Part shown: positions 9,491-53,728 of the stretch, in pieces
How the letters are laid out: the number at the start of each line of letters is the position of its first letter
Numbering within the stretch: the first letter of the stretch is position 1
Virus record (IMG/VR): IMGVR_UViG_3300033571_020201
Location: 1-55,214 of that record
Strand: one strand, 5' to 3'
Length of the DNA stretch: 55,214 nt
Source: a virus
The notes under the pieces: model-generated
Databases searched by the model: none
What the model was told of the DNA's origin: nothing
Seen by the model: the letters and a program-made list of their open reading frames with translations, nothing else
Program-made: the position numbers and the translations under genes

Positions 9491-9706
9491 TCATTTACCT
9501 TTCTTTTTGCGTCCACTCTTCATATTTGCGCACCAGTGAGCCATACGTTGTCTTTCACCACTACTATTTTTAGCAATCTTACGTAGCTCTGTTACACTCT
9601 TTTTACAGTTGACACCTTTTCTTTTTGCTAAACCTTTACGGCCTGGCTTTTTACCATCAGCGTAATTTTCAGTTAATAACATATTCACTAGTTCGTCAAA
9701 GCTCAT
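9491..9706 (-). CDS. Small basic late protein with targeting-like N-terminus
   Basis: 71 residues, very rich in Lys and Arg. It begins MSFDELVNMLLTE then N, a short amphipathic peptide ending in L-T-E, as expected for a gp21 protease site. The remainder (GRKGLAKRKGVNC..., ending in NMKSGRKKKGK) is basic and has a QRMAHWCANMKSGR segment I associate with small proteins of aquatic T4-like phages. A late promoter ends 5 bases upstream on the minus strand, within an otherwise early region. A packaged DNA-binding head protein is the likely role. The N-terminal peptide nearly repeats inside the protein at 30008-30346. Confidence 0.75.
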   Translation of the reverse strand: MSFDELVNMLLTENYADGKKPGRKGLAKRKGVNCKKSVTELRKIAKNSSGERQRMAHWCANMKSGRKKKGK

Positions 9707-20107: not shown

Positions 20108-20115
20108 CATAAATA
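20108..20115 (+). promoter_or_regulatory. Late promoter CATAAATA
   Basis: One base from the T4 consensus, 8 bases before the ATG at 20124. First late promoter of the internal-protein block. Confidence 0.7.
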
Positions 20116-20123
20116 AAGTTATA

Positions 20124-20342
20124 ATGGAGGGTCGAAAAACATTTAAACAGTTTTATGAAAATATAACTGTATCTGACGCACTTGGCGGGTCTCCAGATTC
20201 AAGTAATAGTATATCTGGATCAGATTTTTATGCTAGAGGTGATGCAAGAGTACCAAAATTATTAGGTGTATACTCTAGAAGAGGTAGAGTTAAAACAAAA
20301 AAACGTAAAAAGCGTAAGAAACGTAAAGGTAAAAAGAAATAA
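20124..20342 (+). CDS. Small basic putative internal head protein
   Basis: 72 residues. The start MEGRKTFKQFYE then N is an amphipathic targeting-like peptide with an F-Y-E end. The middle (SISGSDFYARGDARVPKLLG) is a pattern I recall from small proteins of marine T4-like phages. The tail is almost pure Lys/Arg, expected to bind DNA. A late promoter lies just upstream. A protein packaged with the DNA is inferred. Confidence 0.7.
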   Translation: MEGRKTFKQFYENITVSDALGGSPDSSNSISGSDFYARGDARVPKLLGVYSRRGRVKTKKRKKRKKRKGKKK

Positions 20343-20413
20343 ATTATATTATTTCACCTTTATCATTTAATCCTCAGATTTATTTACACTCAAAAAAATA
20401 AAATCAACTGTCA

Positions 20414-20839
20414 ATGGAAAAAAAATTTGGACACTGGGTACTTTCCTTAGAGAATAATCGAGAAATTGTTAAGCCTTATGGGTTTATCTACTTGATTACA
20501 AATAAAACTAATGGTAAAAAGTATATTGGAAAGAAACAATGTTTGACAATACTTAAAAGAAAACCTCTTAAAGGTAAAAAGAATAAGCGTCACGAAGAAA
20601 AAGAGACAGATTGGAAAGAATATACTTCATCTTGCAGAGAACTAAATGAAGATATCAAAACACACGGTAAAGATAATTTTACATTTGAGATATTAAAGTG
20701 GTGTGAATCAAAATTTGATTTAGCATACAGTGAGATTAAAATGCAAATTGAAAGAGAGGTTCTCTTTGATGAACAATATTACAACGGCATTATAAACATA
20801 CGTGTATCAAGACCAAAACACAAACCTTCAACAATGTAA
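20414..20839 (+). CDS. GIY-YIG nuclease family protein
   Basis: 141 residues. YGFIYLITNKTNGKKYIGKKQ (residues 22-42) is a GIY-YIG core variant; DWKEYTSSCRELNEDIKTHGKDNFTFEIL follows, with EREVLFDEQYYN carrying the likely catalytic Glu. There is no separate DNA-binding domain, so it may be a structure-specific or free-standing homing nuclease. No clear promoter is seen; read-through from the late promoter at 20108 is possible. Confidence 0.7.
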   Translation: MEKKFGHWVLSLENNREIVKPYGFIYLITNKTNGKKYIGKKQCLTILKRKPLKGKKNKRHEEKETDWKEYTSSCRELNEDIKTHGKDNFTFEILKWCESKFDLAYSEIKMQIEREVLFDEQYYNGIINIRVSRPKHKPSTM

Positions 20840-21215
20840 AGTTATTGATCTTCATAAAATTATTGAAGATTCACTGGCTCAAACATGTTATCAGTGTGAT
20901 ATTTTAGGTTTAAATTGTGATTTCTCACTGAAAGATGTAGAGAGTTTGTTCTACCACAACTTCATTGTTGGGTATGTTGAAGCAAAAAAGTTACACATTA
21001 ATGATCAAATTACATTTTTCTTTAAAAAAAGACTGGTAGATCCTGTGTATATACAGTATATAGGTAAAGTTTTTAAAATATTAAAGATAAATAATGCTAA
21101 CAAGCCTAAAAACTTTATAAAAAAGTTAAGAGACTTCGCGAAGTCTCATAATCTTAAGTATGTAGAACAGTCTTTACTTACAGATTGTACTAATAAACTC
21201 GCGCTGTTGAAATAA
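20802..21215 (+). CDS. Hypothetical protein after GIY-YIG gene
   Basis: 137 residues, family not recognised. The proposed GTG start at 20802 lies inside the preceding gene, and no in-frame ATG is near, so the start is uncertain. Four Cys cluster near residues 12-40 (including QTCYQCDILGLNCD). The stop codon lies within the next late promoter. Confidence 0.5.
   Translation: MYQDQNTNLQQCKVIDLHKIIEDSLAQTCYQCDILGLNCDFSLKDVESLFYHNFIVGYVEAKKLHINDQITFFFKKRLVDPVYIQYIGKVFKILKINNANKPKNFIKKLRDFAKSHNLKYVEQSLLTDCTNKLALLK
21130..21147. repeat. 18-base perfect palindrome inside the 20802-21215 gene
   Basis: GAGACTTCG followed at once by CGAAGTCTC. It could form a tight RNA hairpin or a protein-binding site. 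No T-run follows on the plus strand. Confidence 0.6.
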
Positions 21216-21218
21216 ATA
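21211..21218 (+). promoter_or_regulatory. Late promoter AATAAATA
   Basis: It ends 5 bases before the ATG at 21224 and contains the stop codon of the preceding gene. Confidence 0.6.
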
Positions 21219-21223
21219 CCTTT

Positions 21224-21637
21224 ATGAGTAAATTTCTCAAATTATTGGAACAGGCTAAGCCAGTTGATGTAGGTAGTAAGCAAGAAATGATGCATAAATT
21301 GGCAGAATTGTTTAACTTGATTGATAGCGTAGAAGTGTCATCTGACGGTGAAAATATTATGGTTGATGTAGGAGGAAAGACACTTAAGCTATCTGTAGTT
21401 AGTGGAGATGAAGAAGAAGATAGTGAAGATCCAGCTTCTATTATTAATCGCAATGTTAAAGATTTGGCAGCCGAGCCACCTGTTAACGGAAAATTTGCTC
21501 CTATCAATAGAGATGCGCAGAGAGCGGTTAAGCAGAAGGATACAGTTGATAGACAAGCAGTAAATTCATTCACTGCTGTAATAAACAGACTTAAAAGTGC
21601 TATAACAGCTTTTAATTCTAAACAACCAAGGTATTAA
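21224..21637 (+). CDS. Putative internal head protein
   Basis: 137 residues, not recognised. It begins MSKFLKLLE then Q, a short targeting-like peptide with an L-L-E end. Residues 25-60 look beta-rich (VEVSSDGENIMVDVGGKTLKL), an acidic DEEEDSEDP follows, and the C-terminal helix is basic. Late promoter 5 bases upstream; first of a tight run of four late genes. Confidence 0.7.
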   Translation: MSKFLKLLEQAKPVDVGSKQEMMHKLAELFNLIDSVEVSSDGENIMVDVGGKTLKLSVVSGDEEEDSEDPASIINRNVKDLAAEPPVNGKFAPINRDAQRAVKQKDTVDRQAVNSFTAVINRLKSAITAFNSKQPRY

Positions 21638-21643
21638 GATATA

Positions 21644-22375
21644 ATGAAAAAAACAGATAAACTCTTTGAGAGATATTTTCAATTATTAAATGAGCAAGAG
21701 CCCGAACCTGTAGCAGATCCGGCTGCCGAACAACCAGCTCCTCCAACAGGTGGACCAGTAATTGACGAGAATCAGAAGTATATGATTAAAGTGTTGACGC
21801 ATGCGTTTATCTTTAATCCAACGCTGTTTAGTAAAGATGTTCAGACAAGAATATCTAACGACATAAAAAGAATTTCAAAATCTGTAAACGTTCCGATCGC
21901 GAAAACTGTTGAGGAAATCACATCTATTATTTGTATGGATAATAGCCTCTGTAGAGATCTAAAAGGTGATCAAAAATTAAAAACAGAATCAAAGACACTT
22001 AAGCTCATTAATAAAATATTAGTTTTATTAGAACAACCAGCTGATGCAACGGAACCTCAAGCAGAAGATGCTGCTGCTACAGAACAAGAAGTGGCTCCAC
22101 AACCCGAACCGCAACCTGAAGCTAAACCATCTCAACTTTCACTTGAGGAGATTTTTCCGTTGTATAGAGAGTTAATTATGAAGGCTTTAGCGCATACACC
22201 AACAGATGATGAGTTAATGATGCTTAAGCCTGTAGTAGACGAGTTTACTGATGTAGACCCAACTAAAATTGAAAATTTCATCTCAAAAACACTCAATCAG
22301 TCATTGCAAGATAATGAACTTGAGGATAATCTATCAGAACTTGAATCTCCAGTAGAGGAAATAGAACTTGATTAA
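21644..22375 (+). CDS. Pro/Glu-rich putative internal head protein
   Basis: 243 residues, not recognised. N-terminus MKKTDKLFERYFQLLNE then Q is a clear amphipathic helix ending L-N-E. Two Pro/Glu/Ala-rich linkers (about 20-42 and 128-160) separate helical segments of similar design (residues 45-115 and 163-225, each with FxxTL/LPxxxEL-type helices), so an internal duplication is possible. It lies 6 bases after the preceding gene. Confidence 0.7.
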   Translation: MKKTDKLFERYFQLLNEQEPEPVADPAAEQPAPPTGGPVIDENQKYMIKVLTHAFIFNPTLFSKDVQTRISNDIKRISKSVNVPIAKTVEEITSIICMDNSLCRDLKGDQKLKTESKTLKLINKILVLLEQPADATEPQAEDAAATEQEVAPQPEPQPEAKPSQLSLEEIFPLYRELIMKALAHTPTDDELMMLKPVVDEFTDVDPTKIENFISKTLNQSLQDNELEDNLSELESPVEEIELD

Positions 22376-22376
22376 A

Positions 22377-23579
22377 ATGTCTAATAAAGAACTAAGTAAA
22401 TTATACAAAGAAGCAGTAGCTCCAATCGGTCACTTTGTAGAAAGTAGACACATTGTAAGAGGTTTAAGCGAAAGTGTCTCATTATACCGCAAAAATGGTG
22501 ATGAATATGAGCTTTTAGGCGATATTGACGACGAATTTTATAATGATACTCTTAAAAGATACATTAAGCTGGGCTCTACTAATTCAATAGAAACGAGAAA
22601 GATTATTCAGGCAGTTCTCAAGAAAAATAATGGTGCTACTACTGATAATTTGAATATTTTTCAGAGCTATGTCGAGGAAGGCGGCTTTGTTATAGATGAA
22701 AATACACTAAAAGCAGGTGAGGAATTTATGCTTAGATGTATTGAAAATAATACAGGCATTCTACTTGACAGTTTTATTGAGACAATCTATGGTGATAATG
22801 TAAACGTAAATAATAAGTACTTTTCAGAAGCGTGGAATACAAGCCCGGCTTCGACAGTAATGGGTAGAGCAGGTTCAGGTGAATTGTTTTTAGCGTTCTT
22901 TTGTAACGGTGTTAAGCCTCAAAAAGGTGATTTACGCGTAGGTAGTGAAGATATTGAACTTAAAGGTTATAATGGCAGGCTGTATAAGAGTGCTAAGATT
23001 GATACAGCTCATGCATTAAGTGAACTAGCTGATGGCGATTATAAAAATGATGAAGAGTTATTTGCTGGTATAGCTGATGTAGTAGGCATACTAGCAGGTA
23101 CTGATGAATTTAATAGTGATGTACAATCTCTCTTAAGTTCGGAAGATCTGAGAAGCGAAGTTGTAGAAAATTATGTTTATTTTAAACGTAGGGGTAAATT
23201 TCCAGCGCTTAGTATTATTGTTAAAGTAGCAGGAGTAGTTCAGTTGCTTGCTTATAAAGAAGCTCAAAAATTTGATTCGATGATTGCATTTAATAATAAT
23301 TTAGGTGGTAATAACATCTGGATGCAGTTTATAAATTTTAAAGATTTATCTAACATACAAGAAGTTTGGAACCGTGTTAATAGTCTTCAGAGTAACATAC
23401 GAACCGCAGTGAGAACTGATGGGTTTGGGTTCTCGTTACAAGCTAACATAGATAAAAATACTAATATGGTTCGTAAATCTGCACAAGATACTGAGAGTGA
23501 CTTTAAAAAACAGCGTGTTTCAGCTCGTAAGACAGATACAAAAGATGTAAAAGTTGGTTCACTTCTTTCGGACATATAA
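22377..23579 (+). CDS. PD-(D/E)XK nuclease-like putative internal protein
   Basis: About 400 residues. The frame opens at TTG 22368, but ATG 22377, one base after the previous stop, gives MSNKELSKLYKE then A, again a targeting-like peptide. Near residues 170-205, GSGELFLAFFC, GDLRV (Asp185) and IELKGYNGRLY (Glu194-x-Lys196) fit the E...D...ExK core of PD-(D/E)XK nucleases. The C-terminus is basic. If packaged and injected it could act on host or competing DNA. Nuclease activity is inferred from motifs only. Confidence 0.65.
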   Translation: MSNKELSKLYKEAVAPIGHFVESRHIVRGLSESVSLYRKNGDEYELLGDIDDEFYNDTLKRYIKLGSTNSIETRKIIQAVLKKNNGATTDNLNIFQSYVEEGGFVIDENTLKAGEEFMLRCIENNTGILLDSFIETIYGDNVNVNNKYFSEAWNTSPASTVMGRAGSGELFLAFFCNGVKPQKGDLRVGSEDIELKGYNGRLYKSAKIDTAHALSELADGDYKNDEELFAGIADVVGILAGTDEFNSDVQSLLSSEDLRSEVVENYVYFKRRGKFPALSIIVKVAGVVQLLAYKEAQKFDSMIAFNNNLGGNNIWMQFINFKDLSNIQEVWNRVNSLQSNIRTAVRTDGFGFSLQANIDKNTNMVRKSAQDTESDFKKQRVSARKTDTKDVKVGSLLSDI

Positions 23580-23580
23580 C

Positions 23581-23588
23581 CATAAATA
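23581..23588 (+). promoter_or_regulatory. Late promoter CATAAATA
   Basis: It ends 9 bases before the ATG at 23598. Confidence 0.65.
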
Positions 23589-23597
23589 ACAATTATA

Positions 23598-26102
23598 ATG
23601 ATAAACTTTAAAACGTATTTTAGAATGTTGCTAGAAGGTGGTCAAGCTGCTGACAATTTGGTCAGTGGTTTAATTACAGCAACAGGTAATCAAAAACTAA
23701 AATATACACGCGCAACAGTTTCTCCAACGGTACTTGACGAGATACAGAGCCTGCTTTCTATCTTAAGAAAAAGCAAGCTTATTGATGTAAGAGAACCATC
23801 CTATGTTTTAGGTAGTAGTAGATTGTTTGCAATTAAAGCAGGTTTTAGAGCGCCCGAACCTAATGAGATTGAAACACCAGAAATAATCGATAAAGCACTT
23901 CAATCTAAAAAAGATTTTGGTGATATTGATCTAGATGTTTATTATACACAAGGTGTTAGTGCAGCTGATATAGCTAATTTCTTAAATAGTGAATTTACAG
24001 GCAAATATGCAGCAGCTGCTGCAGGCGGTGAAGTCAATGCTGCTGTTGTTGTTGGTGATTCAAGCCAGGTTATACAGATTGATATCGTCAATATGTCAGA
24101 AAAAGAAGATTTTCTGAAATTTACTCAGTTTTCTAGCTTTGCAGATATAGCTGCAGGTGTTAAGGGAGTAGTTAGAGATCTCTTAATTAGAGGTATAACT
24201 TCGTCTACACCGATTGATAGCAAAAAGATTGAAAGTCTCAAGGCATTAATTCAGAATACTGATCAATATAAGAAATTTGTTGAGAAACACGGTAAAAAAG
24301 GCGAAGTTACATTTAAAATCCGCTATACACTTGGCGGAAGTGGTCTTGCATATAAAATCGCGTGGATGGTTGATGGTAAAGAAAAGGGTTATAGTAGCGG
24401 TGGAGTTCAGTATGATCAACTTCAAAGATTTGTTACTAATGGCGAAGCGAGCAATGTTAATTATAATGAACTGCAAATTATTGCTAACATTCTCGGATTT
24501 AAAACACCAGAACACATGAAGCATGTTGTTGAGATGGCTAAGCTAATTTCAACATTTGACCAAACAAGAAAACAAGAAATTTGGGACAATCTTGTTAAGA
24601 ATATCAAAACAAAAATTCCTGACCCATCAAGAGGTAGAAACGTAGGTCAGATGTCTCTTGATGACGCGAAATCTGCTCTTAATTATCTATTACCATTTTT
24701 TGGCAATGTAACTAATAGTAATATTGATGAATTGTTTACAAAAACAACTGATGATATTTTGAGTGAAGCTGTAAAGATGGTCGCAATTCCTCATATCGAT
24801 CAGATGACTCCTAAAGATTTCTGTAATCTGTTTAGTAGTGATGCATGGGAAGTGTCAGAAAAGTATGATGGTTCAAATGTGTCTTTTGGTTTAGATGAGA
24901 ACAATAATCTATATGTTAAATCAAAACGCGGTAACCCTATTACAGATGCAAATGAATTCTTTCAATTAGCACAGGCTCTTGAAAACGATGTGTTCGAGAG
25001 TTTTGGTAACTTTTTAAACGCTCTCAATAAAAGCAATATAAAGAAACTGCTTTTTAGTCTGCAAGAAAAACTAGATGCACCTATCCAAATCTTCGGAGAG
25101 CTATTTGGTAAGGCTCATATGAATGTTATTGAATATTCGCCAGAGCTTATTGGTAATGGTGCTGTAGTTCTGTTTGGCGCTGTGAAGCTAACAACCAAGA
25201 AGGGCGAAGATATGTCTACAACAAAACTAGGCAGAGATATCTTAGCGCAAGTTGCAGCTACAATAAATGACACAAGTTCTTGGAAAGCTTACACCAAAAA
25301 ACCTGTAGATCTCAAGATTAAAGATATTATTAAAAAGCAAATTACTAGAGTGTGTTCAGCAGAGAATATGGCTGCTATGGCTTCAAGAAAGAGAACAGGA
25401 GACGAAGCCATGTTAAAGGCTAAAGCTGTAAAAGAGTTTGAAAGACTTAAAAGCTTAGTTAAGAGAAATATGCTATCAAGTATTAGAAGTGTTCCGTCTT
25501 CTCTTGGTGCTAAAGAAATTGAAGGTACCATTATTAGAAACATGGAGACAGGTGCAATTGCCAAGTTGGTTGATCTTGAAGACTTCGGTCGTCGTAGAGT
25601 AGAACAATGGGCAGGTGTTGATGCATTAAAAGAGTATAGAAAGAATCTATATAACGAGCTTAAGAATAATATTCTTAAAAATGCTGACATCTTTATTCTG
25701 ACTGATAAGCAAATGCAAAAACTTACAGATGCTATTGAAACACGTGGATCTAAGTTTAAAACACTAGATGAAATGTTAGATGTATTCTATGGTGATGCAG
25801 CTAGTGAAGTAGAGTTTTTGGAATCGAAGAAGATGGTAGCAGCTCTTGTAGCTACACTTAAAGAGTATAAGTTGGATATTGAGAGAGCAATGTTTCAGAT
25901 CGATGATCAAGATACTAAAGCTAAAACTGATACCCAAAACGCTATTAACGCTGAGAAATCTCGTATAGATAACTTCATTAAGGCTCTTGAAAATAGATTA
26001 CATAATAACGAAAACCCATACCTATCCGTAATAGGATTTGTTTTGAGTCCTAAGTTTATTGATGAGCTTAAAGCTAAATTCTTAAAAGCTGCGACAGCGT
26101 AA
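23598..26102 (+). CDS. Two-domain nucleotidyltransferase / RNA-ligase-like putative internal protein
   Basis: 834 residues. It starts MINFKTYFRMLLE then G, a targeting-like peptide with an L-L-E end. Residues 65-170 fit a polymerase-beta-type nucleotidyltransferase: LGSS at 71-74, DIDLD at 109-113, and a third Asp in IQIDIV at 162. Residues 400-665 fit a covalent nucleotidyltransferase (ligase) domain: KYDGSN (Lys422), FGELFG (Glu501), EGTIIRN (Glu642) and AKLVD (Lys656), the order expected for motifs I, III, IV and V. The C-terminus (680-834) is helical. It has its own late promoter. It may be a packaged enzyme that repairs or modifies RNA (inference); no matching fusion is known to me. Confidence 0.75.
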   Translation: MINFKTYFRMLLEGGQAADNLVSGLITATGNQKLKYTRATVSPTVLDEIQSLLSILRKSKLIDVREPSYVLGSSRLFAIKAGFRAPEPNEIETPEIIDKALQSKKDFGDIDLDVYYTQGVSAADIANFLNSEFTGKYAAAAAGGEVNAAVVVGDSSQVIQIDIVNMSEKEDFLKFTQFSSFADIAAGVKGVVRDLLIRGITSSTPIDSKKIESLKALIQNTDQYKKFVEKHGKKGEVTFKIRYTLGGSGLAYKIAWMVDGKEKGYSSGGVQYDQLQRFVTNGEASNVNYNELQIIANILGFKTPEHMKHVVEMAKLISTFDQTRKQEIWDNLVKNIKTKIPDPSRGRNVGQMSLDDAKSALNYLLPFFGNVTNSNIDELFTKTTDDILSEAVKMVAIPHIDQMTPKDFCNLFSSDAWEVSEKYDGSNVSFGLDENNNLYVKSKRGNPITDANEFFQLAQALENDVFESFGNFLNALNKSNIKKLLFSLQEKLDAPIQIFGELFGKAHMNVIEYSPELIGNGAVVLFGAVKLTTKKGEDMSTTKLGRDILAQVAATINDTSSWKAYTKKPVDLKIKDIIKKQITRVCSAENMAAMASRKRTGDEAMLKAKAVKEFERLKSLVKRNMLSSIRSVPSSLGAKEIEGTIIRNMETGAIAKLVDLEDFGRRRVEQWAGVDALKEYRKNLYNELKNNILKNADIFILTDKQMQKLTDAIETRGSKFKTLDEMLDVFYGDAASEVEFLESKKMVAALVATLKEYKLDIERAMFQIDDQDTKAKTDTQNAINAEKSRIDNFIKALENRLHNNENPYLSVIGFVLSPKFIDELKAKFLKAATA

Positions 26103-26119
26103 TAACACTGACTGTGTAG

Positions 26120-26127
26120 CATAAATA
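26120..26127 (+). promoter_or_regulatory. Late promoter CATAAATA
   Basis: It ends 5 bases before the ATG at 26133. Confidence 0.65.
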
Positions 26128-26132
26128 AGTGT

Positions 26133-26531
26133 ATGAGGCACTCACTTAATGATATAGCAAGGGCGTATACTACCATACGCGAGGCTGCTATGCCTGTTAT
26201 GGTAACTACTAATGTACCTGCTGATCACTTAGAATTTGAAGGCGGTTACAATGAAGATGAAACAGCTGAGACTGGCGAATGCGAGTCTTCTGATATTGAA
26301 ATGGCGTTAAATCAGCTACGTAAAATTATTGAAGTTACACCTGAACTGCTTTCTATTCTCGAGCATAAATCTGATCTCGATGGATGGGCTTTAATTAAAT
26401 TGGCTAAAGCTGCAGACTATATCGGTGGTGTACACGACTACTACAAGTACAAAGAAGACAGTAGCTGTCAAGATGACGAGCAGGATGACGATCATTCAAT
26501 AATGTTTAGTGTCGGTTATGAGAACCTCTAA
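26133..26531 (+). CDS. Small acidic putative internal head protein
   Basis: 132 residues. MRHSLNDIARAYTTIRE then A is a targeting-like peptide with an I-R-E end. An acidic linker is followed by a helical region, ALNQLRKIIEVTPELLSILEHKSDLDGWALIKLAKAADYIG, a pattern I associate with short head proteins of aquatic T4-like phages. The C-terminus is Asp/Glu-rich. It overlaps the next gene by 14 bases. Confidence 0.7.
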   Translation: MRHSLNDIARAYTTIREAAMPVMVTTNVPADHLEFEGGYNEDETAETGECESSDIEMALNQLRKIIEVTPELLSILEHKSDLDGWALIKLAKAADYIGGVHDYYKYKEDSSCQDDEQDDDHSIMFSVGYENL

Positions 26532-26964
26532 GAATACATTTAAAAAGTTTTACGAAGCAACTGTCATCGGTCTTATCGAAGAGATCGATATACAAGGCAT
26601 TGGTAAAATACTTGCAAAGGTAGATAGTGGTAACTCAGCTCATCCAGTTATACACGGTACTGATGTTACAAGACAAGGCGACAAAGTTCTTTTTACAACT
26701 GTTGGTGGGAAGAGAATTATCAAAGACATTGTAGATATGATTAATATCAATATTGGTGGTGGTCATATCGAGCAACGACCTGTTGTAACATTTAGAGTAA
26801 AATTTGCTGGTCAGACCTTTGACAATGTAGCCTTTAGCGTTGGAAATAGAGAGACCAATGAATACAAAGTACTCATTGGTCGTGATTTTATTAAGCAGTT
26901 AGATGCTCTAATTGATGTTAATGCTAAGCGTATTAGCACTGATAACATCAAAGTAGATTATTAA
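26518..26964 (+). CDS. Retropepsin-like (RimB/COG4067-type) protein, putative internal protein
   Basis: 148 residues from the ATG at 26518; a GTG at 26509 in frame is less likely. It starts [13 protein letters not shown] then A, a targeting-like peptide. The rest is a pepsin-like half: [14 protein letters not shown] with Asp36-Ser-Gly as the catalytic loop, a flap region near residue 60, [22 protein letters not shown], and [14 protein letters not shown] at the end, matching the G-R-x-F-I/L motif of the RimB-type aspartyl protease family. A small late aspartyl protease could mature head proteins or act in the host after injection. Its end overlaps folE by 4 bases on the other strand. Confidence 0.7.
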
Positions 26965-27626
26965 CTAGACATATCAACAAACTTGTAAAACTCACTACGA
27001 GTTTTCTCATCGTTCATAAAGTCGCCAGACAACTTACTAGTAACCATATAACATCCTTCATGTTTTACACCTCTGTGACAAGCGCAAGTATGTTGTGCTT
27101 TTACAACAACAGCAACACCTTGATTGCCTTCACAGACTTGATTAATTGCAGAATGAATTTGTAAAGTCATCGACTCTTGGATTTGCGGACGTCTTGCATA
27201 GAACTCTACGATACGATTCAACTTACTAAGACCGATAACCTTACCCTCTTTAGATGGAATATAAGCTACATGCGCTACACCAGTAAAAGCAAGGTGGTGG
27301 TGACTACATAGTGATTTAACAGGAATATTGCACTGCGCAATAATACCGTCATATCCATCAGAAGGAAAAGCAGTAATAGATGGAGGTAAATTATAGCAAC
27401 CAGATGCGATATCATTAACAAAAGCTTTTGCTACACGCATCGGAGTATTAGCAGAATTAGGATCTTGTCTCCAATCAAATCCAAGAGCATCGAGATATTT
27501 TTCATAAGCCTTAGCTGCACGTTTAATAATGTGTTGTTTCTCTTTTTCAGTGCGAGGATTGTTATCATTAGCTTGAGGCAGCTTTACAAGTTCGCCAATA
27601 TCAGAGGTATCGTCAAATTCATCCAT
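26961..27626 (-). CDS. folE: GTP cyclohydrolase I FolE
   Basis: 221 residues, typical size. It converts GTP to dihydroneopterin triphosphate, the first step to preQ0 (and folate). Zinc and active-site motifs are intact: [41 protein letters not shown], and [15 protein letters not shown]. Residues 1-35 are an extra acidic/polar extension. Its promoter places transcription start at the ATG. With queD, queE and queC it completes the 7-deazaguanine route. Confidence 0.93.
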
Positions 27627-27633
27627 ATAATCG

Positions 27634-27661
27634 ATTATAGGCTATCAATTAAAAAAATCAA
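27634..27661 (-). promoter_or_regulatory. Early/middle promoter for folE
   Basis: Exact TTGATT (27656-27661), 16-base spacer, TATAAT (27634-27639), 7 bases to ATG. Confidence 0.65.
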
Positions 27662-27666
27662 CAAGA

Positions 27667-27674
27667 CATAAATA
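27667..27674 (+). promoter_or_regulatory. Late promoter CATAAATA
   Basis: Its last base is the A of an upstream in-frame ATG (27674), so that ATG cannot be the used start; the next ATG, 27680, is 5 bases downstream, as at other late genes. Confidence 0.65.
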
Positions 27675-27679
27675 TGGTT

Positions 27680-28480
27680 ATGAGAAAAGCGTCTCAAAGA
27701 CAATTAGTTAACGAAGCATTTAGTGATGTAATGCGTGGTATAGGTTCAGCATTAAAGCAGACAAACATAGGTCAAGCATTTTTATCAGATATTGCGCCTA
27801 TAACTAAATTTGCTAAAGCATTTAATAAACAACAACCTGCAGCAGTTTTAAAGCACGAACTTAAAAATAGATATTTTCGAACATTCGATTATAAGTCAGT
27901 TAAAATCGGTAAAGCAACAAAACTTCCTGGAGACGCTAAAAAAGATAATAGAGTATCCATACCATTTTCAGCAATGCTAATTAAAAAAGTTAGCAAAGAT
28001 CAGTCCACAGGAAACATAACTGGCGGTAAATTGCCTATAGAAAAATTTACAGCGGTTTTGTCAAGAGATAAAAAGAGTCTTGACGGTAACTATCAGTTAG
28101 AAATTATAAAGGACGCAACAGGTAATGTTATTGGAGCAGATCAAGGTTCAAGCAAGAGTTCTTCAAGTAAAATATCTCAGAAAATATGGACAGATATTCT
28201 TGCAGATGTTGGTAAGCTTAGAACATTTAATGTAGATGAAGTACTAAAACTTATTGCATTGAGTACTGGTTATACCGTAAAAGATCTTAAGGATTATGAT
28301 AATAAACGCCTTGCTAATACAATTAATCAAGATGTAACTAGCAACAAGCGTGATTTACAAAATACTACAAAGTACCTCAAAACACAACAATTACTAGAAA
28401 AGAATCAGCAAACACAGTTGCAATTGATAGAGAGCAGTTATAATCTTATACATGAGCTATCAATCAACAAAAGTAATTGA
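27680..28480 (+). CDS. Putative internal head protein
   Basis: About 266 residues, not recognised. The start at 27680 is chosen because the late promoter covers the earlier ATG. MRKASQRQLVNE then A is targeting-like with a V-N-E end. The body is basic and helical with a beta-rich middle (residues 60-150), a Ser/Lys linker (SSKSSSSK) near 160, and a Gln-rich C-terminal helix. A packaged DNA-associated protein is inferred. Confidence 0.7.
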   Translation: MRKASQRQLVNEAFSDVMRGIGSALKQTNIGQAFLSDIAPITKFAKAFNKQQPAAVLKHELKNRYFRTFDYKSVKIGKATKLPGDAKKDNRVSIPFSAMLIKKVSKDQSTGNITGGKLPIEKFTAVLSRDKKSLDGNYQLEIIKDATGNVIGADQGSSKSSSSKISQKIWTDILADVGKLRTFNVDEVLKLIALSTGYTVKDLKDYDNKRLANTINQDVTSNKRDLQNTTKYLKTQQLLEKNQQTQLQLIESSYNLIHELSINKSN

Positions 28481-30007: not shown

Positions 30008-30346
30008 GTGCCATACATAAGAAAAGGAAAATGTGTTTATAGAAAAGATACTGGTAAGAAGGTAGGATGCTCTGAAACAGTTGAAGAGGCAAAAGAATAT
30101 ATTAAAGCATTATATGCTAATGCTGATGATGAAGAAACGTTTATTCATGGTGTAAAGACTGTAAACGAAGAACTTAGCTTTGACGAGCTAGTTAACATTA
30201 TTCTAGAAAAGGCTAAACCTAAGAAAAAGAGTAAGTTAAGATCAAAATGCCAAGCAAAAGCGAAGGCTAAATATGATGTATGGCCTAGTGCGTATGCATC
30301 AGGATATGTGCAACGTTGTGTAAGAAGGGGAGGTAAGATAGGCTAA
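30008..30346 (+). CDS. Small basic late protein with WPSAYASG motif and internal targeting-like peptide
   Basis: 112 residues, GTG start. The N-terminal part (MPYIRKGKCVYRKDTGKKVGCS) is a compact module. Residues 57-68 (LSFDELVNIILE then K) nearly repeat the N-terminal peptide of the 9491-9706 protein. The C-terminal part is basic with YDVWPSAYASGYVQRC, a motif I recall from many virus-encoded small proteins. A late promoter ends 5 bases upstream. The design suggests a DNA-binding head protein, perhaps made as a precursor cut after the internal Glu. Confidence 0.7.
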   Translation: MPYIRKGKCVYRKDTGKKVGCSETVEEAKEYIKALYANADDEETFIHGVKTVNEELSFDELVNIILEKAKPKKKSKLRSKCQAKAKAKYDVWPSAYASGYVQRCVRRGGKIG

Positions 30347-30588
30347 TGGAGCAGATGTCGCAAAGATTGTTACTTGAGAATCTAGATGAGTGGTTTGCTT
30401 CTCATGTAGATAAGAAAGGTAAGAAGTTTAAGGGTTGGATTAACTGTAAGACAGGAGGACCGTGTGGTCGCAAAAACACTTCAAAGGGATCATACCCCGC
30501 TTGTAGACCTACAAAAGCGCAATGTAAACAGATAAAGGGTAAGATGTATAAAAAGAAAAGTTCGAAGAGAGTTAAGTGGAAGAAATAA
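30346..30588 (+). CDS. Small Cys/Lys-rich late protein
   Basis: 80 residues. MEQMSQRLLLE then N gives a targeting-like peptide with an L-L-E end. The rest (GWINCKTGGPCGRK, YPACRPTKAQCK) has four Cys in a zinc-ribbon-like spacing, and the tail is Lys-rich. It overlaps the previous stop by one base and is probably coexpressed. The family resembles small virus proteins of the DUF5872 type, from memory. Confidence 0.65.
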   Translation: MEQMSQRLLLENLDEWFASHVDKKGKKFKGWINCKTGGPCGRKNTSKGSYPACRPTKAQCKQIKGKMYKKKSSKRVKWKK

Positions 30589-30645: not shown

Positions 30646-31374
30646 ATGCCTGTCTATCTTTTACTAAAACAACACAATACAACAAAAAAATACTATCTGT
30701 GTAAAAGAACAACTAACGATGTACGTACTGTGTTTACTTATCTAGGCTCAGGTAAGAGGTGGCTAAACCATCTTAATAAACATGGTAAAGATATTAATAC
30801 TGCTATTTTAGAAATTGCATCTAGTAATTCAGAGCTAAAGCAAAAGGCAGCATTTTATAATAAAGTGTGGAGGGTTGGAACTAATCCCTTATTTATGAAT
30901 TTAAGACCTGAAGAAGGAGACGGTGGAGATACGTGGATGTTTACAGAAAATATAGATGAACGTAGAGCAGTCGTGTCTCAAAGACTGAAAGAGTTTAACT
31001 GCACGGAGAGAGGTCGTTTAATACGAAAAAGAGTTGGTTTAATAACAAGACAGAATCAATTAGGATTGACAATGAAAGAACGGTTAGGGGAAGGCTATGT
31101 GGATAGTAGAAAGGGAAAAAAATTTAATGAGATATATTGCGAAGGGTATGTACACCCTCAGCAGAGACCGTTCAAGATAACTCTGACACGTACAGGTGAG
31201 TATTGGATATTTAATAACGAGACAGAATTTAAAAATAAGCTAAATCTCAATCCAGACCCAACACTAAGAAAATTAAAAAAGGAAGGAATGCTGGTAATTA
31301 AACAAGTTAAAGTAAATTCAAGACATAACTTTGCAAAAAATGATACGTTGATTTTTGAGTATTTAAACTTATAA
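30646..31374 (+). CDS. Putative homing endonuclease
   Basis: 242 residues. The N-terminal part (TTKKYYLCKRT..., TYLGSGKRWLNHLNKHGKDINTAILE) resembles the core of phage free-standing endonucleases that carry a YxGSGKxW segment. A helix rich in Arg follows, then a C-terminal DNA-binding-like part ending with a small beta segment. It sits between the basic-protein genes and queE with a late-type promoter, suggesting a selfish insertion. Catalytic residues are not certain. Confidence 0.6.
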   Translation: MPVYLLLKQHNTTKKYYLCKRTTNDVRTVFTYLGSGKRWLNHLNKHGKDINTAILEIASSNSELKQKAAFYNKVWRVGTNPLFMNLRPEEGDGGDTWMFTENIDERRAVVSQRLKEFNCTERGRLIRKRVGLITRQNQLGLTMKERLGEGYVDSRKGKKFNEIYCEGYVHPQQRPFKITLTRTGEYWIFNNETEFKNKLNLNPDPTLRKLKKEGMLVIKQVKVNSRHNFAKNDTLIFEYLNL

Positions 31375-32540: not shown

Positions 32541-33143
32541 GTGAAAAATCATAAAATTTTAGTACTCAATAAATTCTACTTTCCTATTGGTGTCGAAGGT
32601 ATTGAAAAAACCTTCGGTAATATTTTTTCTGGATCAGTAGTACCATTAGACGTCAGTTACGAGACTGACGATCATGGAGATATTTTGTTTGAGAATATCG
32701 AATACTTTGCAGCAGTAAAAGGTGCAGAGGAATGGATTAAACTTCCTATCAGACCATACGACGAATACTTGCAAACTGCAAGAGGTCCTGTTCGAGTTCC
32801 TACTGTAGTAATCTGCGCTAATTACGATAAGATCATCTACAATAAGGTTCAGTTTCCTACTAAATCTAACATCTATAAGAGAGATAACTTCACTTGCGTT
32901 TACACAGGCAAAAAACTATCTAAAGATGAGCTTAGTATCGACCACGTAATACCTAAAAGTAAGGGTGGTAATGATACTTGGGAAAATCTTGTGACGTGTG
33001 ATCGTATGTTAAACTCTAAAAAAGGTAGTTTAACTCTCGCTGAAGCTGGCTTGAAGTTAGCGTACAAGCCATACAAACCTAAAAACGGAATGATCTTCGA
33101 TTCTTTCAAAGAAGAGTGGTCTGCGTTCTTGAAAAATGTATAA
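32541..33143 (+). CDS. HNH endonuclease
   Basis: 200 residues, GTG start. The N-terminal half resembles the domain seen in HNH proteins of cyanobacteria and phages (VLNKFYFPIGVEG). The nuclease core NFTCVYTGKKLSKDELSIDHVIPKSKGGNDTWENLVTCD (about 115-155) has the catalytic DH and the N, but only a partial Cys set. The last 27 residues (ending EEWSAFLKNV) are repeated nearly exactly at the end of the 37046-37324 gene, marking a recombination joint. TATAAT lies 5 bases upstream without a clear -35. Confidence 0.8.
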   Translation: MKNHKILVLNKFYFPIGVEGIEKTFGNIFSGSVVPLDVSYETDDHGDILFENIEYFAAVKGAEEWIKLPIRPYDEYLQTARGPVRVPTVVICANYDKIIYNKVQFPTKSNIYKRDNFTCVYTGKKLSKDELSIDHVIPKSKGGNDTWENLVTCDRMLNSKKGSLTLAEAGLKLAYKPYKPKNGMIFDSFKEEWSAFLKNV

Positions 33144-33175
33144 TGTAGTGTATATATTATACATATGAGAATTGC
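33065..33175 (+). repeat. 111-base direct repeat, copy A
   Basis: It matches 37246-37356 with about six mismatches by eye and no gap. It covers the end of the HNH gene, the spacer and the first codons of the truncated kinase. Confidence 0.85.
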
Positions 33176-33389
33176 GTTTAGTGGAACAGGGAACAGCGGT
33201 AAGACAACACTAGTAAAAAACTTTCTGGCTGTTTGGCCTAACTACAAGCAGCCAGAAAAAACTTATAGAGATCTTCTAAAAGAAGGTCAACTGAAGCATA
33301 GTAAAGATACTATTCCTAACGAAAAGAAGAGGGCTATGATGGAAGATCAATTTAAAGTTTATTATGATAAATGGGAAGCTAATAAGTAA
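33165..33389 (+). pseudogene. Truncated copy of P-loop kinase gene
   Basis: 74 residues. The first 50 match the 243-residue kinase at 37346-38077 (MRIA.SGT...GKTTL.KNFLAVW, EKTYRD.LKE). After KHSKDT the sequence diverges and soon stops. The Walker A is kept but the rest of the fold is lost, so it is probably a remnant left by recombination. Confidence 0.75.
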
Positions 33390-33411
33390 GCATACGCCGG
33401 ACTCATCGAGG

Positions 33412-34005
33412 ATGTTTCATATAGTCATCCCAACATATGGCGGAGGACCCAAGCTAGAAGTTATAGTCAATTGTTTTCTTGCACAAACTTGTCAAGATTA
33501 CCATATATCTATTGTGTCAGATGGTCCAGAGCAAGAGACAGCCAAGCAGCTTGAGAGATATTATGATATAGAAAATTTTTCCTATTACCATTTAGATAAG
33601 AGGTATAACGACTGGGGACATACCCCGAGGGAGTTTGGTATATATCAATCAAATTGCGAGTTTACATTAATGTCTGGGTATGATAACTACTACGTTCCAA
33701 CATTTATAGAGGAGTTTAAAAAAGCTGCAAGGTTTACATCGAATGTAAAATTTATATTTTGTGACATGATACATAACCATGTTATAAATGGATCTTCATA
33801 TAACGGGCATATAGACTCTGTGTTAGAATCTGGGCGTATTGATATAGGAAACTTTGCGACCAATACAGATTTATTAAAACTTGTAGGTTACAAATCTAGA
33901 TCTTACGCAGCTGACTGGGATCTGGTAGAATCTCTCATACCCTACTTGAAGCAACCAGAGAATAACATAATAAAAATACCAAAAACACTATACATACACA
34001 ATTAA
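33412..34005 (+). CDS. Glycosyltransferase family 2
   Basis: About 197 residues, starting MFHIVIPTYGGGPKLEV. The frame is open from 33364, but the ATG at 33412 gives the usual GT2 start. IPTYGG, HISIVSDGPEQET, YYHLDKRYNDWGHTPREFG and MSGYDNYY fit the GT-A fold, although the DxD motif is replaced by YDN. First gene of the glycosylation island. Confidence 0.75.
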   Translation: MFHIVIPTYGGGPKLEVIVNCFLAQTCQDYHISIVSDGPEQETAKQLERYYDIENFSYYHLDKRYNDWGHTPREFGIYQSNCEFTLMSGYDNYYVPTFIEEFKKAARFTSNVKFIFCDMIHNHVINGSSYNGHIDSVLESGRIDIGNFATNTDLLKLVGYKSRSYAADWDLVESLIPYLKQPENNIIKIPKTLYIHN

Positions 34006-34637
34006 TGAAAACAGATATAATAGTTGCGAGATACAATGAAAATGTGGAGTGGCTTAATTCTTTAAACTCAAAAGCACAGATTTTTTTGTATAATAAAGGT
34101 CAACATAGCGATGATAGTATACAGCTGCCAAACATAGGCAGAGAAGCGCATACATATATACATCATATAATTAGTAATTATAATAATTTAAGCGATTATA
34201 ATATTTTTTGTCAAGGTGACCCATTTCCACATTGCGGTAATTTTATAAGCCATGTTAATAGTGTTGTGGATGGAGCTGAGTGTGTAAATGAATTTAAATG
34301 GTTAACTAACGGCCTATATAACACACTAAATAACGGCGGTCCTTATCATACTGTTGACTTGCGAATAGATGAATATCTAAGCAGGATAGGAATGGGACAT
34401 ATAGATGTATCGGGTGTATTTCAATTCGGTCCGGGAGCGCAATTCATCGCAACAGGTGAGTGTCTGCGTAAGAGACCTGTAGAATTTTATATGGGTATAA
34501 TACAAACGTTTGACCTCACTACGTACGATCAGAGATTTAGAGATAGTGATTATATTGAGGGTAGAAGTGTAGAACAATTCTACCATATTGCATGTATTCT
34601 AGAGAGAGTGTGGGAGAAAATTTTAACGGTTTATTAA
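34005..34637 (+). CDS. DUF3431-type glycosyltransferase-like protein
   Basis: 210 residues. DIIVARYNENVEWL, YNKG, LPNIGREAHTYIHHIISNYNNL and NIFCQGDPFPHC are the hallmark segments of DUF3431, linked to cell-surface glycan genes. It shares one base with the previous stop and is probably co-translated with the fusion gene downstream. Confidence 0.75.
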   Translation: MKTDIIVARYNENVEWLNSLNSKAQIFLYNKGQHSDDSIQLPNIGREAHTYIHHIISNYNNLSDYNIFCQGDPFPHCGNFISHVNSVVDGAECVNEFKWLTNGLYNTLNNGGPYHTVDLRIDEYLSRIGMGHIDVSGVFQFGPGAQFIATGECLRKRPVEFYMGIIQTFDLTTYDQRFRDSDYIEGRSVEQFYHIACILERVWEKILTVY

Positions 34638-34645
34638 ATAGATTT

Positions 34646-36460: not shown

Positions 36461-36461
36461 T
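36434..36461 (+). promoter_or_regulatory. Early/middle promoter for DUF366 copy 1
   Basis: TTGAGA (36434-36439), 16-base spacer, TATAAT (36456-36461), 6 bases to ATG. Confidence 0.55.
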
Positions 36462-36467
36462 ACACTT

Positions 36468-37049
36468 ATGATTATTACTCAGCAAGTATATAATGGTCCG
36501 TTAATTAAGGAAAGATTCGCTTATAGATTCCTTAACAAGAAAGTTAATCCAGTTGGTGACATCGTTGCATTTAGAGCTCCGATGTATGTAAGTGATGACC
36601 TAATCGATCTCGAAGATTCTCTGTCTAAAGATTTTATCTATAGTGAGGATGCTATTAACTTCTGTTGGGAGATTCCTAACCTAGATAAATTCGGCGCGGT
36701 TGCGTTTCAGCGTTGGTTCAATACCAATATTGCGACTATTTTATCTAGATATATCGACAAGCCTATCAATATGAAAGGTGATGACTTGATGGTTCGTGAT
36801 AGTTTTGTTGGTTCAGATAAGGTTGTTAGAGAAGTAGGTAAATGCAGTGTATCTATTACATACTCCAAAGATAATGTAGCTATTGGACATACAGGTATCA
36901 ATATTAGAGCAGGTAAACAAGCGCCAGGCTTTGCATACTCTACCAATCTTAGCGATGAACTTGTTAATCATTTTATGGAAGAAGTAATTGTTACATTCTA
37001 TAAAGAGATTAACGATATCTTCGTCGCAACTTCTAAAGTCATTGTATGA
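36468..37049 (+). CDS. DUF366 family protein, copy 1
   Basis: 193 residues. FRAPMYVSDDLIDLEDSL, MKGDDLMVRD and KCSVSITYSKDNVAIGHTGINI match DUF366, a family of unknown function that, as I recall, is related to the biotin/lipoate ligase fold. It shares the same overall sequence with 43594-44175 (a paralogue), and both are followed with a 4-base overlap by a gp62-like gene. It has its own early promoter. Confidence 0.75.
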   Translation: MIITQQVYNGPLIKERFAYRFLNKKVNPVGDIVAFRAPMYVSDDLIDLEDSLSKDFIYSEDAINFCWEIPNLDKFGAVAFQRWFNTNIATILSRYIDKPINMKGDDLMVRDSFVGSDKVVREVGKCSVSITYSKDNVAIGHTGINIRAGKQAPGFAYSTNLSDELVNHFMEEVIVTFYKEINDIFVATSKVIV

Positions 37050-37324
37050 ATTTCTTCGAAACTCTCAACTTCCTCTTCTACAAGAAGAGGGAGAAGCAGC
37101 TAGATGTAGATATTGAGACTGCTAGTGCGTTCAGTTCATATATGACGAACAGATGGTGGTCTTTTTACGACAAGGATTCAGCCTTATTCACTAATAACGT
37201 TCTCAATAGATTGGCGAGTGTGTTTGATGATAGGTCTGAGCAGTTCAAGCCATACAAACCTAAAAACGGAATGATTTTCGATTCTTTCAAAGAAGAGTGG
37301 TCTGCGTTCTTGAAAAATGTCTAA
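37046..37324 (+). pseudogene. Truncated gp62-like gene fused to the HNH C-terminus
   Basis: 92 residues. Residues 1-66 match the start of the gp62-like protein at 44172-44552 (MNFF, MTNRWWSF.DK, LN...VFDDRS). The final 27 residues are the C-terminal tail of the HNH protein at 32541-33143. The basic segment that follows in the intact copy is missing, so clamp-loader function is unlikely. Confidence 0.75.
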
Positions 37325-37356
37325 TATGGTGTATATATTAGATATATGAGAATTGC
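37246..37356 (+). repeat. 111-base direct repeat, copy B
   Basis: Partner of 33065-33175. It joins the gp62-like remnant to the HNH tail, spacer and start of the intact kinase. Confidence 0.85.
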
Positions 37357-42112: not shown

Positions 42113-42137
42113 TATATAAAAATGAAAAATACTATAT

Positions 42138-43545: not shown

Positions 43546-43559
43546 GTAGTTAAAGTAGC

Positions 43560-51911: not shown

Positions 51912-52577
51912 ATGGCACTAAAGCTAAACTTGCTAGTTGAGAAACCTCAAGCAGAAGATCAATATCAATACGTCTTCGAAGAGGCAAATCGCAATGCACC
52001 ATCGACACTTTACATCAAAGGCCCGTACATGGTTGCTAACGCTGTTAACAAGAATAGAAGAATGTATCCTCGTGAAGAGCTTCAACGCGAAGTTCAGAGA
52101 TATACAGAAGAGATGATTGTTCCGGGTCGTGCAATGGGAGAGCTAAATCACCCAGCGACTGCAGATGTCGATCTTGAAAGAGCATGTCATGTTATTACTG
52201 AGCTATACGAACATGATAATATCTTTTACGGTAAGTCAAAAGTTCTATCTACACCATGTGGCTTAATTATTAAATCTCTTATCAATGACGGTGTAAAAGT
52301 TGGTATGTCTTCTCGTGCTCTTGGTACCCTTGAAGAAGGCGAAGGTCATAATACAGTAAGAAATCTTAAACTTGTTGCAGTTGACTGTGTTGCTGATCCA
52401 AGCGCTCCATCTGCTTTTGTTAATGGTATTCTTGAATCTAAGCAATGGGTTGTAGCTGAAAATGGTAAGTACGAAGAAATTTATGAAAATTTTGAAGCTG
52501 CTATTAGAAAGCTACCTAGAAAAGATAGAGATGCGTTTTTACGTGACCGCATCTTAAGTTTCTTAAAAAAGATCTAA
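51912..52577 (+). CDS. 21: Prohead core protease gp21
   Basis: 221 residues (T4: 212). It is the serine protease that cleaves gp22, gp23 and internal proteins after short Glu sites. GELNHPATADVDLERACHVITEL near residue 78 holds the catalytic His, VGMSSRALG near 131 the Ser, and VDCVADPSAPSAFVNG follows. Its own N-terminus, MALKLNLLVE then K, has the same Glu-ended design as its likely substrates. Confidence 0.92.
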   Translation: MALKLNLLVEKPQAEDQYQYVFEEANRNAPSTLYIKGPYMVANAVNKNRRMYPREELQREVQRYTEEMIVPGRAMGELNHPATADVDLERACHVITELYEHDNIFYGKSKVLSTPCGLIIKSLINDGVKVGMSSRALGTLEEGEGHNTVRNLKLVAVDCVADPSAPSAFVNGILESKQWVVAENGKYEEIYENFEAAIRKLPRKDRDAFLRDRILSFLKKI

Positions 52578-52622: not shown

Positions 52623-52853
52623 ATGGGTAAGCATAGTGCGACGAAAAAACCTAAAACAAAAGCAAAGGCTAAGAAAGCTACTGCAAAAAAAGTTGTATCT
52701 AAAAAGGTCGTGAAAGAAGCTAGCGATATTGTTAAGTTTATTGAAGCACTTTCTGCAGAAAAATATGCACAGGCTAATAAATATTTGGTGAACATCATTG
52801 AGAAAAAGATTTCTGATAGAATCAGTTCTTCGCTTGATGAGCCTCTATTCTAA
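52623..52853 (+). CDS. Prohead core protein, gp67-like
   Basis: 76 residues. A Lys/Ala-rich N-terminus (residues 4-30) precedes SDIVKFIEALSAEKYAQANKYLVNIIEKKISDRI, a helix like that at the start of T4 gp67 (IEAIKSNDLVAARKLF...). Unlike T4 gp67 there is no acidic tail. Position between gp21 and gp22 supports a core role. Confidence 0.55.
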   Translation: MGKHSATKKPKTKAKAKKATAKKVVSKKVVKEASDIVKFIEALSAEKYAQANKYLVNIIEKKISDRISSSLDEPLF

Positions 52854-52861
52854 TACAATAT

Positions 52862-53728
52862 ATGAAAGTTAAATCACTACTTACAGAAGATGCTGCACAG
52901 ACTCTATCCGAAGAGTCTATTCAAGTTATCGAGCAAGCTTTTATCGAGAAGCTAGACCTTACAGTTGAGGCTGCTCTTGCTAAACAAGATGACTTATATG
53001 CATCTAAACTCGAAGCCCTTATTAAAGCGCTTGATAAAGATCACACAGTTAAGCTTACACGTGTTGTAGAAGCAATTGATCGTAACAACTTCAACAAACT
53101 TAATAAAGTTGTTAAGCGTTATGAAAGAGTTTTAAATCAAGAAGCAAGTGCATTTAAAGCTACTCTTGTTGAATCTATCTCCAACTACCTCGAAGAGTTT
53201 ATTGATGAGGCTATCCCAGCACAAGCCATCATGGAAGCTACCAAGAACAAAACTGCTATTAAAGTTCTTGACAATCTACGTAAAGTTTTAGCTGTTGACT
53301 CAGCTCTTATGTCTGAGTCTGTACAAAGCGCTGTTGTTGATGGCAAACAACAACTTGACACCCTTTCTGAGAAAGTAACTAAGCTTGAAAAAGAAAATGC
53401 TCTTCTTAAAGAGCACTATTCTAAAACAAAAGCTGCACTTATTCTCGAAGAAAAAGTTGCTGGTCTTTCAGACAAGCAAAAAGATTATGTAAAGCGTGTT
53501 CTTAGTGACAAGACTCCGAAGTTTATCGAGGAGAATTTTGACTACACTCTACGCCTTTTCAAGAAGCAAGAAGACGAGCATTTGAAAGTTATCAAAGAGC
53601 AAGCTTTTGAAACAAGAAAAGTTAAAGCAGATAGACCTGTAATCACTGAGAGTGCTCGTAGCACTTCGAAAGAAACATCTTTTAACCCTTACGTGGAAGA
53701 ACTTGAGCGTTTGAATCGCTATAAATAA
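52862..53728 (+). CDS. 22: Prohead core scaffold gp22
   Basis: 288 residues (T4: 269). Long coiled-coil scaffold broken down by gp21 during maturation. It begins MKVKSLLTE then D, with SLSEKVTKLEKENALLKEHYSK coiled coil near residue 170 and FNPYVEELERLNRYK at the end. It lies directly before gp23, as in T4. Its last codons and stop overlap the gp23 late promoter. Confidence 0.9.
   Translation: MKVKSLLTEDAAQTLSEESIQVIEQAFIEKLDLTVEAALAKQDDLYASKLEALIKALDKDHTVKLTRVVEAIDRNNFNKLNKVVKRYERVLNQEASAFKATLVESISNYLEEFIDEAIPAQAIMEATKNKTAIKVLDNLRKVLAVDSALMSESVQSAVVDGKQQLDTLSEKVTKLEKENALLKEHYSKTKAALILEEKVAGLSDKQKDYVKRVLSDKTPKFIEENFDYTLRLFKKQEDEHLKVIKEQAFETRKVKADRPVITESARSTSKETSFNPYVEELERLNRYK
53720..53727 (+). 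promoter_or_regulatory. Late promoter TATAAATA for gp23
   Basis: Exact consensus; it encodes the last Tyr-Lys of gp22 and part of its stop codon. 62 bases lie between it and the gp23 ATG. Confidence 0.8.

Follow-up and report, generated by a model that had tools for sequence, protein, structure and literature searches.

The capsid targeting sequence (CTS) is a device of phage T4 that is mainly tied to Alt and to small internal proteins (IPs), of which IPI is a nuclease inhibitor. IPI, IPII and IPIII begin with a short peptide ending in (L/I)-x-E before a small residue, and at their locus a constant tag is reported to be combined with changing cargo (PMC3012670, PMC9026906). The rules for T4 CTSs have been described, and Alt, a packaged and ejected ADP-ribosyltransferase (ART), is an enzyme with a short N-terminal propeptide cut by the prohead protease gp21 (PMC9026906). 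In myoviruses, head-packaged effectors such as MuF- or portal-fused ARTs and Nudix proteins are considered, from their context, to be virion-delivered enzymes countering host defence, and virion delivery of ART, Macro, NADAR and Nudix proteins has been proposed (PMC9503650). Here we describe a gene island in a 55,214-base IMG/VR fragment of a T4-like phage (IMGVR_UViG_3300033571_020201; the whole fragment is called the window), whose products carry peptides resembling the T4 tags. Unlike the small, DNA-associated T4 IPs, the island proteins include large multi-domain enzymes; unlike Alt, their predicted chemistry is RNA ligation and nucleotidyl transfer, RimB-type proteolysis and HxGH nucleotidyl transfer; and unlike the myovirus effectors, which reach the head by fusion or are deduced from gene neighbourhood, they appear to be stand-alone enzymes with a cleaved CTS, a design otherwise represented by Alt. 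We consider it probable that these proteins are packaged via CTS and gp21.

The phage is distant from named phages, its portal protein sharing at most ~27% identity with those of the best-scoring ones, and additional cargo may be encoded beyond the ends of this fragment. The first-pass annotation had listed eleven genes whose products share a tag-like start ending at a Glu, and all eleven open reading frames (ORFs) are present with these starts (Table 1). At 22377, 26518 and 27680 the mechanical ORF opens slightly upstream, and the ATG chosen in that annotation is the one conserved among relatives. The remark that gp21 and gp22 start alike is also borne out, and the gp21 tag or a close variant of it is near-invariant across ~80 relatives (relatives of gp21 are numerous among viral contigs; 80 loci were kept, and long stretches were read for some). 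The description of many members as very basic fits 20124, 9491, 30346, 27680 and 26518, but not 5919, 21644 and 26133, all three of which are acidic; the cleavage proposed at Glu residue 12 of 22377 has to be abandoned, since that residue is not conserved and the conserved Glu in six orthologues is E32.

Because the genes had been picked by their N-termini, most weight belongs to tests independent of that selection. A position-specific scoring matrix (PSSM) trained on ten window tags, with gp21 and gp22 left out, was applied to 67 annotated T4 genes. Seven of the top eight places went to known gp21 substrates of T4, namely gp22, gp67, IPIII, IPII, gp68, gp23 and gp24 at ranks 1-5, 7 and 8 (Mann-Whitney p=1e-5), with IPII and IPIII at 3-4; IPI (28th) and gp21 (17th) were missed. 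The reverse transfer, trained on T4 and scored on the window, gave p=4e-5. Within the window, 11 of the 70 genes score at p<=0.02 with a matrix built on window N-termini, against 1.4 expected, a partly circular figure, and 9491 (p=0.13) and 27680 (p=0.08) are weak by matrix score alone. A permutation test of shared N-terminal similarity is circular in the window (p=0.0004-0.0007); the same test in the relatives G007, G008 and G006, where membership of the sets was decided mostly by location within the orthologous cluster, gave p=0.002, 0.018 and 5e-5. A crude rule, hydrophobic-x-E, was rejected as a tag detector because it matches 11% of internal segments, and the PSSM and transfer tests were therefore used instead.

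Late promoters, or a place in late runs, had been noted for most of the tagged genes, and the placement of the element agrees. ATAAATA lies 3-19 nt upstream of the start in 12 of the 70 window genes, against 0.15 expected, and it is so placed in 9 of the 14 tagged genes (gp21, gp22 and 52623 included) versus 3 of the 56 untagged ones (Fisher p=5e-6); each of the five tagged genes lacking it directly abuts an upstream gene on the same strand. Only the placement is informative, as TATAAATA shows no excess across the window (10 found, 9.7 expected). These results point to late expression of the tagged genes, as far as sequence can indicate it.

The island is syntenic in ~45 relatives, in which it adjoins a UvsW-like helicase gene and recombination genes (named by similarity and position). 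Orthologues were gathered via the protein body and their N-termini then compared. Among distinct N-termini the Glu is preserved in 5/5 for the 834-residue ligase-like protein E of the window (E834), in 15/15 for its 562-residue replacement in relatives (E562), and in 6/6 each for D and for D2, a protein of relatives; it is also found in 16 of the 17 N-termini of A (35 related loci) and, by the pattern used, in 10 of the 11 of I. In C the E↓Q junction (the arrow marks the predicted cut) is kept in 26/26 while the propeptide spans 16-21 residues; in E834 the propeptide before GGQAAD has 13 residues in four distinct forms and 21 in L005, and E↓GG is found in 5/5. E13 of H is present in 20/20 aligned sequences and E9 of F, an enzyme absent from the window and carried by relatives, in 12/12. 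B retains MSKFLxxxE, G has orthologues at 61 loci, several with an LxE site, relatives of 5919 have starts ending in VLKE↓AK or SLHE↓AK, and N-termini related to that of 30346 occur in L126, L004, L146 and L093. Position P3 is hydrophobic in nearly all orthologues, with one exception each in C and E562, and is sometimes V, F or Y. The Glu position is thus the most conserved part while propeptide length varies.

It is also evident that nearly the same tag is found on unrelated folds: H starts with MKSFKKFFE↓A or MINFKHFFE↓K, F with MINFKLFFE↓Q and a further protein, F2, with MKTFKQYLLE↓Q, and a single phage (L145) carries MINFKQFLE↓Q on F and MINFKHFFE↓K on H. The two ligase types begin with MINFRQYFNILLE↓GG (E562) and MINFKTYFRMLLE↓GG (E834). 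In L124, L125 and L126, near-identical phages whose H is ~91% identical to that of the window, E834 and D are swapped for another D, the E562 nucleotidyltransferase (NTase)-ligase and the cytidylyltransferase-like F, and both the replacement ligase and F are tagged; in L161, D, E and F are all missing. The island is a changeable cargo locus, and its constant tag with swapped cargo matches the pattern reported for the T4 IPs.

A tagged relative of an island enzyme has been found in virions. F2 shares ~38-44% identity with cytidylyltransferases from cyanophages and phages related to them and was found by tblastn in 528 phage records; SSM1_190 of cyanophage S-SM1 (38% identical to F2, labelled T4-GC190 in the record) starts with MKKFSAFLNE↓A and Syn9 gp184 with MKKFSAFLSE↓A. 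In Sullivan et al. (2010), T4-GC190, a 'putative citidylyltransferase', is named among the proteins detected in purified S-SM1 virions (PMC3037559); this detection concerns presence, not N-terminal cleavage. T4-GC190 resembles F as an HxGH nucleotidyltransferase with such a start, and differs in setting, since F occurs in relatives of the window only. Tagged ligase and cytidylyltransferase genes are also present together in Methylophilales phage Melnitz-3, and tagged ORFs in S-CRM01, P-SSM5 and C48C1. In Synechococcus phage S-CRM01, an 821-residue protein annotated as serine/threonine kinase PKN8 (L177:5601-8066) starts with MISFDQFLSE↓K, and by this start it is possibly another large capsid-tagged enzyme. 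T4-GC15, the second of the core proteins newly reported from S-SM1 virions, was considered and set aside, because with its tail-protein annotation and weak score it gives no support. Capsid targeting with gp21 cleavage, as originally proposed, is well supported by the transfer to T4 substrates, the placement of late promoters, the tag common to unrelated enzymes and the tagged relative in S-SM1 virions.

The ligase-like assignment of E can be sharpened to an RNA ligase with a Polβ-type NTase motif. E834 matches PF09414 (RNA ligase) at residues 416-657 (E 1.2e-7, 32.5 bits, cut-off 27) and phrog_548 (RNA ligase, E 7.6e-10), with conserved motif I KYDG at 422-425, E501 and IQIDIV; by inspection, GSS..GDIDLD upstream together with IQIDIV fits a Polβ-type NTase active site. 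E562 (562-567 residues) has the same order, GSTGK..GDLDI, D120 and then EKADG, invariant or nearly so in 14 sequences. E is thus a probable NTase-RNA ligase, the ligase part by family match and the NTase part by motif. Neither E834 nor E562 has a Pfam match to an RlaP-type NTase, the motifs being assigned by inspection only; E562 has no match among solved structures, and E834 none by tblastn among named phages. A common origin of the two was considered, but their profiles align only in the ligase motif I region, at a modest probability (38%), and it is therefore not shown. The closest described systems are those of jumbo phages, in which a Polβ-type RlaP NTase works with an ATP-grasp RNA ligase, the prediction being that missing nucleotides are put back before the ends are joined (PMC7824862); unlike these, the island has a putative NTase and a ligase fused in one capsid-tagged protein. 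A third E type, in L156 and L159, belongs to DUF6267 (PF19782; the Pfam match was tested on L159) and has a K(W/F)DG(A/S)P motif. DUF6267 loci lie at L156:7717-8946, L159:7643-8947 and L175:8001-9248, and relatives occur in hundreds of cyanophages; KWDGAP/KFDGSP resembles motif I of ATP-dependent ligases, and several phages have a capsid-tag-like N-terminus on this protein.

The retropepsin-like protein H is more precisely of the RimB type. It matches PF05618 (E 1.1e-6, 29 bits, cut-off 27) and the profile of structure 9g58 (E 8e-7), and DSGN, an active-site-type motif, is found in 20/20 aligned sequences. According to PMC11957791, such RimB proteins are retropepsin-like proteases that act in ribosome modification as part of RimABK; H differs in being capsid-tagged, and no RimK partner was identified in the window. 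In Pelagibacter phage Mosig (L117:8032-9417) a protein with a glutathione synthetase annotation (RimK-like ATP-grasp) ends C-terminally in an H-type domain, and this junction suggests a self-contained polyglutamylation on/off enzyme. F may be assigned to the HxGH nucleotidyltransferases: T29, G31 and H32 are present in 12/12 aligned sequences, PPAT profiles match, and CTP_transf_like gives 18.7 bits for F of L126, just below the cut-off of 21, and 30.4 bits, above it, for S-SM1 GC190. D preserves GDLxVGSxxIExKG together with E32 in six orthologues, and D2 has DITLID..YYISLK; both look like PD-(D/E)XK proteins at motif level.

How the system would work can be outlined from T4. The cargo genes would be transcribed late, together with the head genes, and the first 9-32 residues of each product would serve as a T4-type CTS that docks the protein into the prohead core, where gp21 would cut after (L/I/V/F/Y)-x-Glu and leave the mature protein among the packaged DNA. 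By analogy with T4 Alt and the IPs, the enzymes E, D and H (and F in sister phages) would then be delivered along with the DNA into the next host and be active there ahead of any phage gene. The likeliest task of E, and of F in relatives, would be to mend RNA that host anti-phage nucleases have cleaved, with lost nucleotides restored by the NTase and ends sealed by the ligase; H may modify a host target, for instance the tail of ribosomal protein S6, as RimB does in the ribosomal S6 modification system. For these particular proteins we infer packaging, cleavage, injection and repair function. Immediate RNA repair fits best, because the NTase-ligase would have to act before phage gene expression, and an RNA-repair role, taken by itself, is plausible but somewhat short of probable. 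More tentative is the wider proposal that this clade, and Kyanoviridae more widely, may inject a virion-packaged RNA-repair kit (NTase-RNA ligase, HxGH nucleotidyltransferase and nuclease-like partner) that mends tRNA or further RNAs after cleavage by anticodon nucleases or RNA-targeting nucleases already present in the host, along with a RimB-like protease resetting ribosome modification.

Several points weigh against packaged, injected enzymes. The S-SM1 study terms T4-GC190 a virion structural protein (PMC3037559), and the window-trained matrix places GC190 10th of the 192 S-SM1 genes, which is not decisive alone. Relatives of the island ligase in Syn9 (gp183) and S-SM1 (GC71) have no tag, so ligase packaging does not extend to all of them. 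A number of sites do not follow L/I-x-E strictly (F/Y at P3, and F/Y at P1' in D2), and for the clade of the window packaging is read from the genes. The AF2 model of E834, built from five close sequences, is unusable (predicted local distance difference test score, pLDDT, 39), and that of D (pLDDT 70) found no fold match in the PDB; the PD-(D/E)XK-like assignment made earlier for 22377 thus stays at motif level.

The CTSs could also be real while the cargo works in the head or in assembly, in DNA condensation, core building or head maturation, with catalytic domains that are incidental or act on the packaged DNA. Several members are indeed small, very basic or acidic and core-like, and T4 gp67, gp68 and gp22 are core proteins with such sites (PMC9026906). 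We regard this as unlikely, though a serious contender, since no aligned orthologue departs from the catalytic-type residues of H and F or the motif residues of E, and enzymes are swapped or lost between close relatives, unlike essential assembly factors.

Both remaining explanations dispense with head packaging. The enzymes might have late intracellular functions, such as late RNA repair or tRNA and ribosome modification, and share their N-termini through gene conversion or common descent of small ORFs; a repair role is discussed for phage RNA ligases and RlaP NTases outside any packaging (PMC7824862), and some cyanophage ligase homologues are untagged. The tags on non-homologous folds, the tagged cytidylyltransferase relative in virions, and the late-type element and tag pattern that the tagged genes have in common with gp21 make this improbable. 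Still less credence, indeed very little, can be given to N-terminal peptides that target elsewhere (tail, baseplate, membrane or phage nucleoid) with a coincidental Glu. Amphipathic helices are generic targeting signals, and the looseness of the crude motif rule would allow it, but the window-trained matrix specifically selects T4 gp21 substrates, matching sites are present in gp21 and gp22 of the same phage, and it is the Glu that is held constant.

Table 1. Tagged genes and head genes of the window (window positions; ↓, predicted gp21 cut)
Gene	Product	Position	Strand	Tag and other features
A	72 aa, very basic	20124..20342	+	predicted propeptide MEGRKTFKQFYE↓N, 20124-20159; ATAAATA upstream
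B	137 aa	21224..21637	+	propeptide MSKFLKLLE↓Q, 21224-21250; ATAAATA upstream
C	243 aa, acidic	21644..22375	+	propeptide ...YFQLLNE↓Q, 21644-21694
D	400 aa, PD-(D/E)XK-like motif GDLRVGSEDIELKG	22377..23579	+	likely cleavage after E32 (RGLSE↓S), propeptide 22377-22472
E	834 aa, probable NTase-RNA ligase	23598..26102	+	propeptide MINFKTYFRMLLE↓GG, 23598-23636
G	132 aa, acidic	26133..26531	+	propeptide ...TTIRE↓A, 26133-26183; ATAAATA upstream
H	148 aa, RimB-type retropepsin-like	26518..26964	+	propeptide 26518-26556; catalytic-type DSGN residues 36-39
I	266 aa, basic	27680..28480	+	propeptide MRKASQRQLVNE↓A, 27680-27715; ATAAATA upstream
30008	112 aa, basic	30008..30346	+	internal tag-like segment ELSFDELVNIILE↓KAKP; ATAAATA upstream
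30346	80 aa, basic	30346..30588	+	propeptide MEQMSQRLLLE↓N, 30346-30378; PSSM p=0.0008
5919	503 aa	5919..7430	+	propeptide MRSFDNLLKRYAIVAE↓A, 5919-5966; ATAAATA upstream
9491	71 aa, basic	9491..9706	-	propeptide MSFDELVNMLLTE↓N, 9668-9706; ATAAATA upstream; PSSM weak
gp21	prohead protease	51912..52577	+	PF03420 E 1.8e-33 at 52002-52442; own tag MALKLNLLVE↓K
52623	gp67/68-like small basic core protein	52623..52853	+	ATAAATA upstream; assignment inferred from position
gp22	gp22-like scaffold	52862..53728	+	LLTE and LSE sites; assignment inferred from position between gp21 and gp23

Of the gp23 gene only the start lies within the window, the rest being off its end. In 52623 and its relatives a conserved C-terminal part is joined, at a Glu before A or S, to a very variable basic N-terminal part, and a gp21 site therefore probably lies at that boundary too. 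The tag-like module of 30008-30346, missed in the first-pass annotation, stands in the middle of its protein and resembles the start of the unrelated 9491. Beside or inside cargo genes, at 9753-10400, 20414-20839 and 30646-31374, lie genes recognized by eye as probable homing endonucleases of the GIY-YIG type, and those at 9753 and 30646 have an ATAAATA element of their own. Elsewhere, a glycosyltransferase-like island contains segmental duplications (32541-38077 and 36468-44552): 36468 is paralogous to 43594 and 37046 to 44172, the P-loop proteins 33165 and 37346 are likewise paralogues, and 32541 and 37046 have the common ending FKEEWSAFLKNV. Pfam matches to PipB2, APC and the like fell below the cut-off and were disregarded.

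The mechanism of capsid targeting is already known from T4, and it is the cargo, a probable RNA-repair kit with a RimB-like protease, that appears to be new: the full-text literature searched, a scope that leaves out preprints and most subscription papers, contained no account of RNA ligases, RimB-like proteases or cytidylyltransferases that bear a CTS. If the reading of these proteins as packaged, injected enzymes is true, a large group of aquatic T4-like phages would attach the CTS to enzymes as an all-purpose address for the head, and injected effectors would be encoded by many genes now called 'hypothetical' or 'auxiliary metabolic', that of the cyanophage cytidylyltransferase among them. 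Such enzymes would act before transcription, and the targets could be tested via mature N-termini in virion proteomes. Searching for the tag would moreover be an easy route to the injected effectors of uncultured phages.

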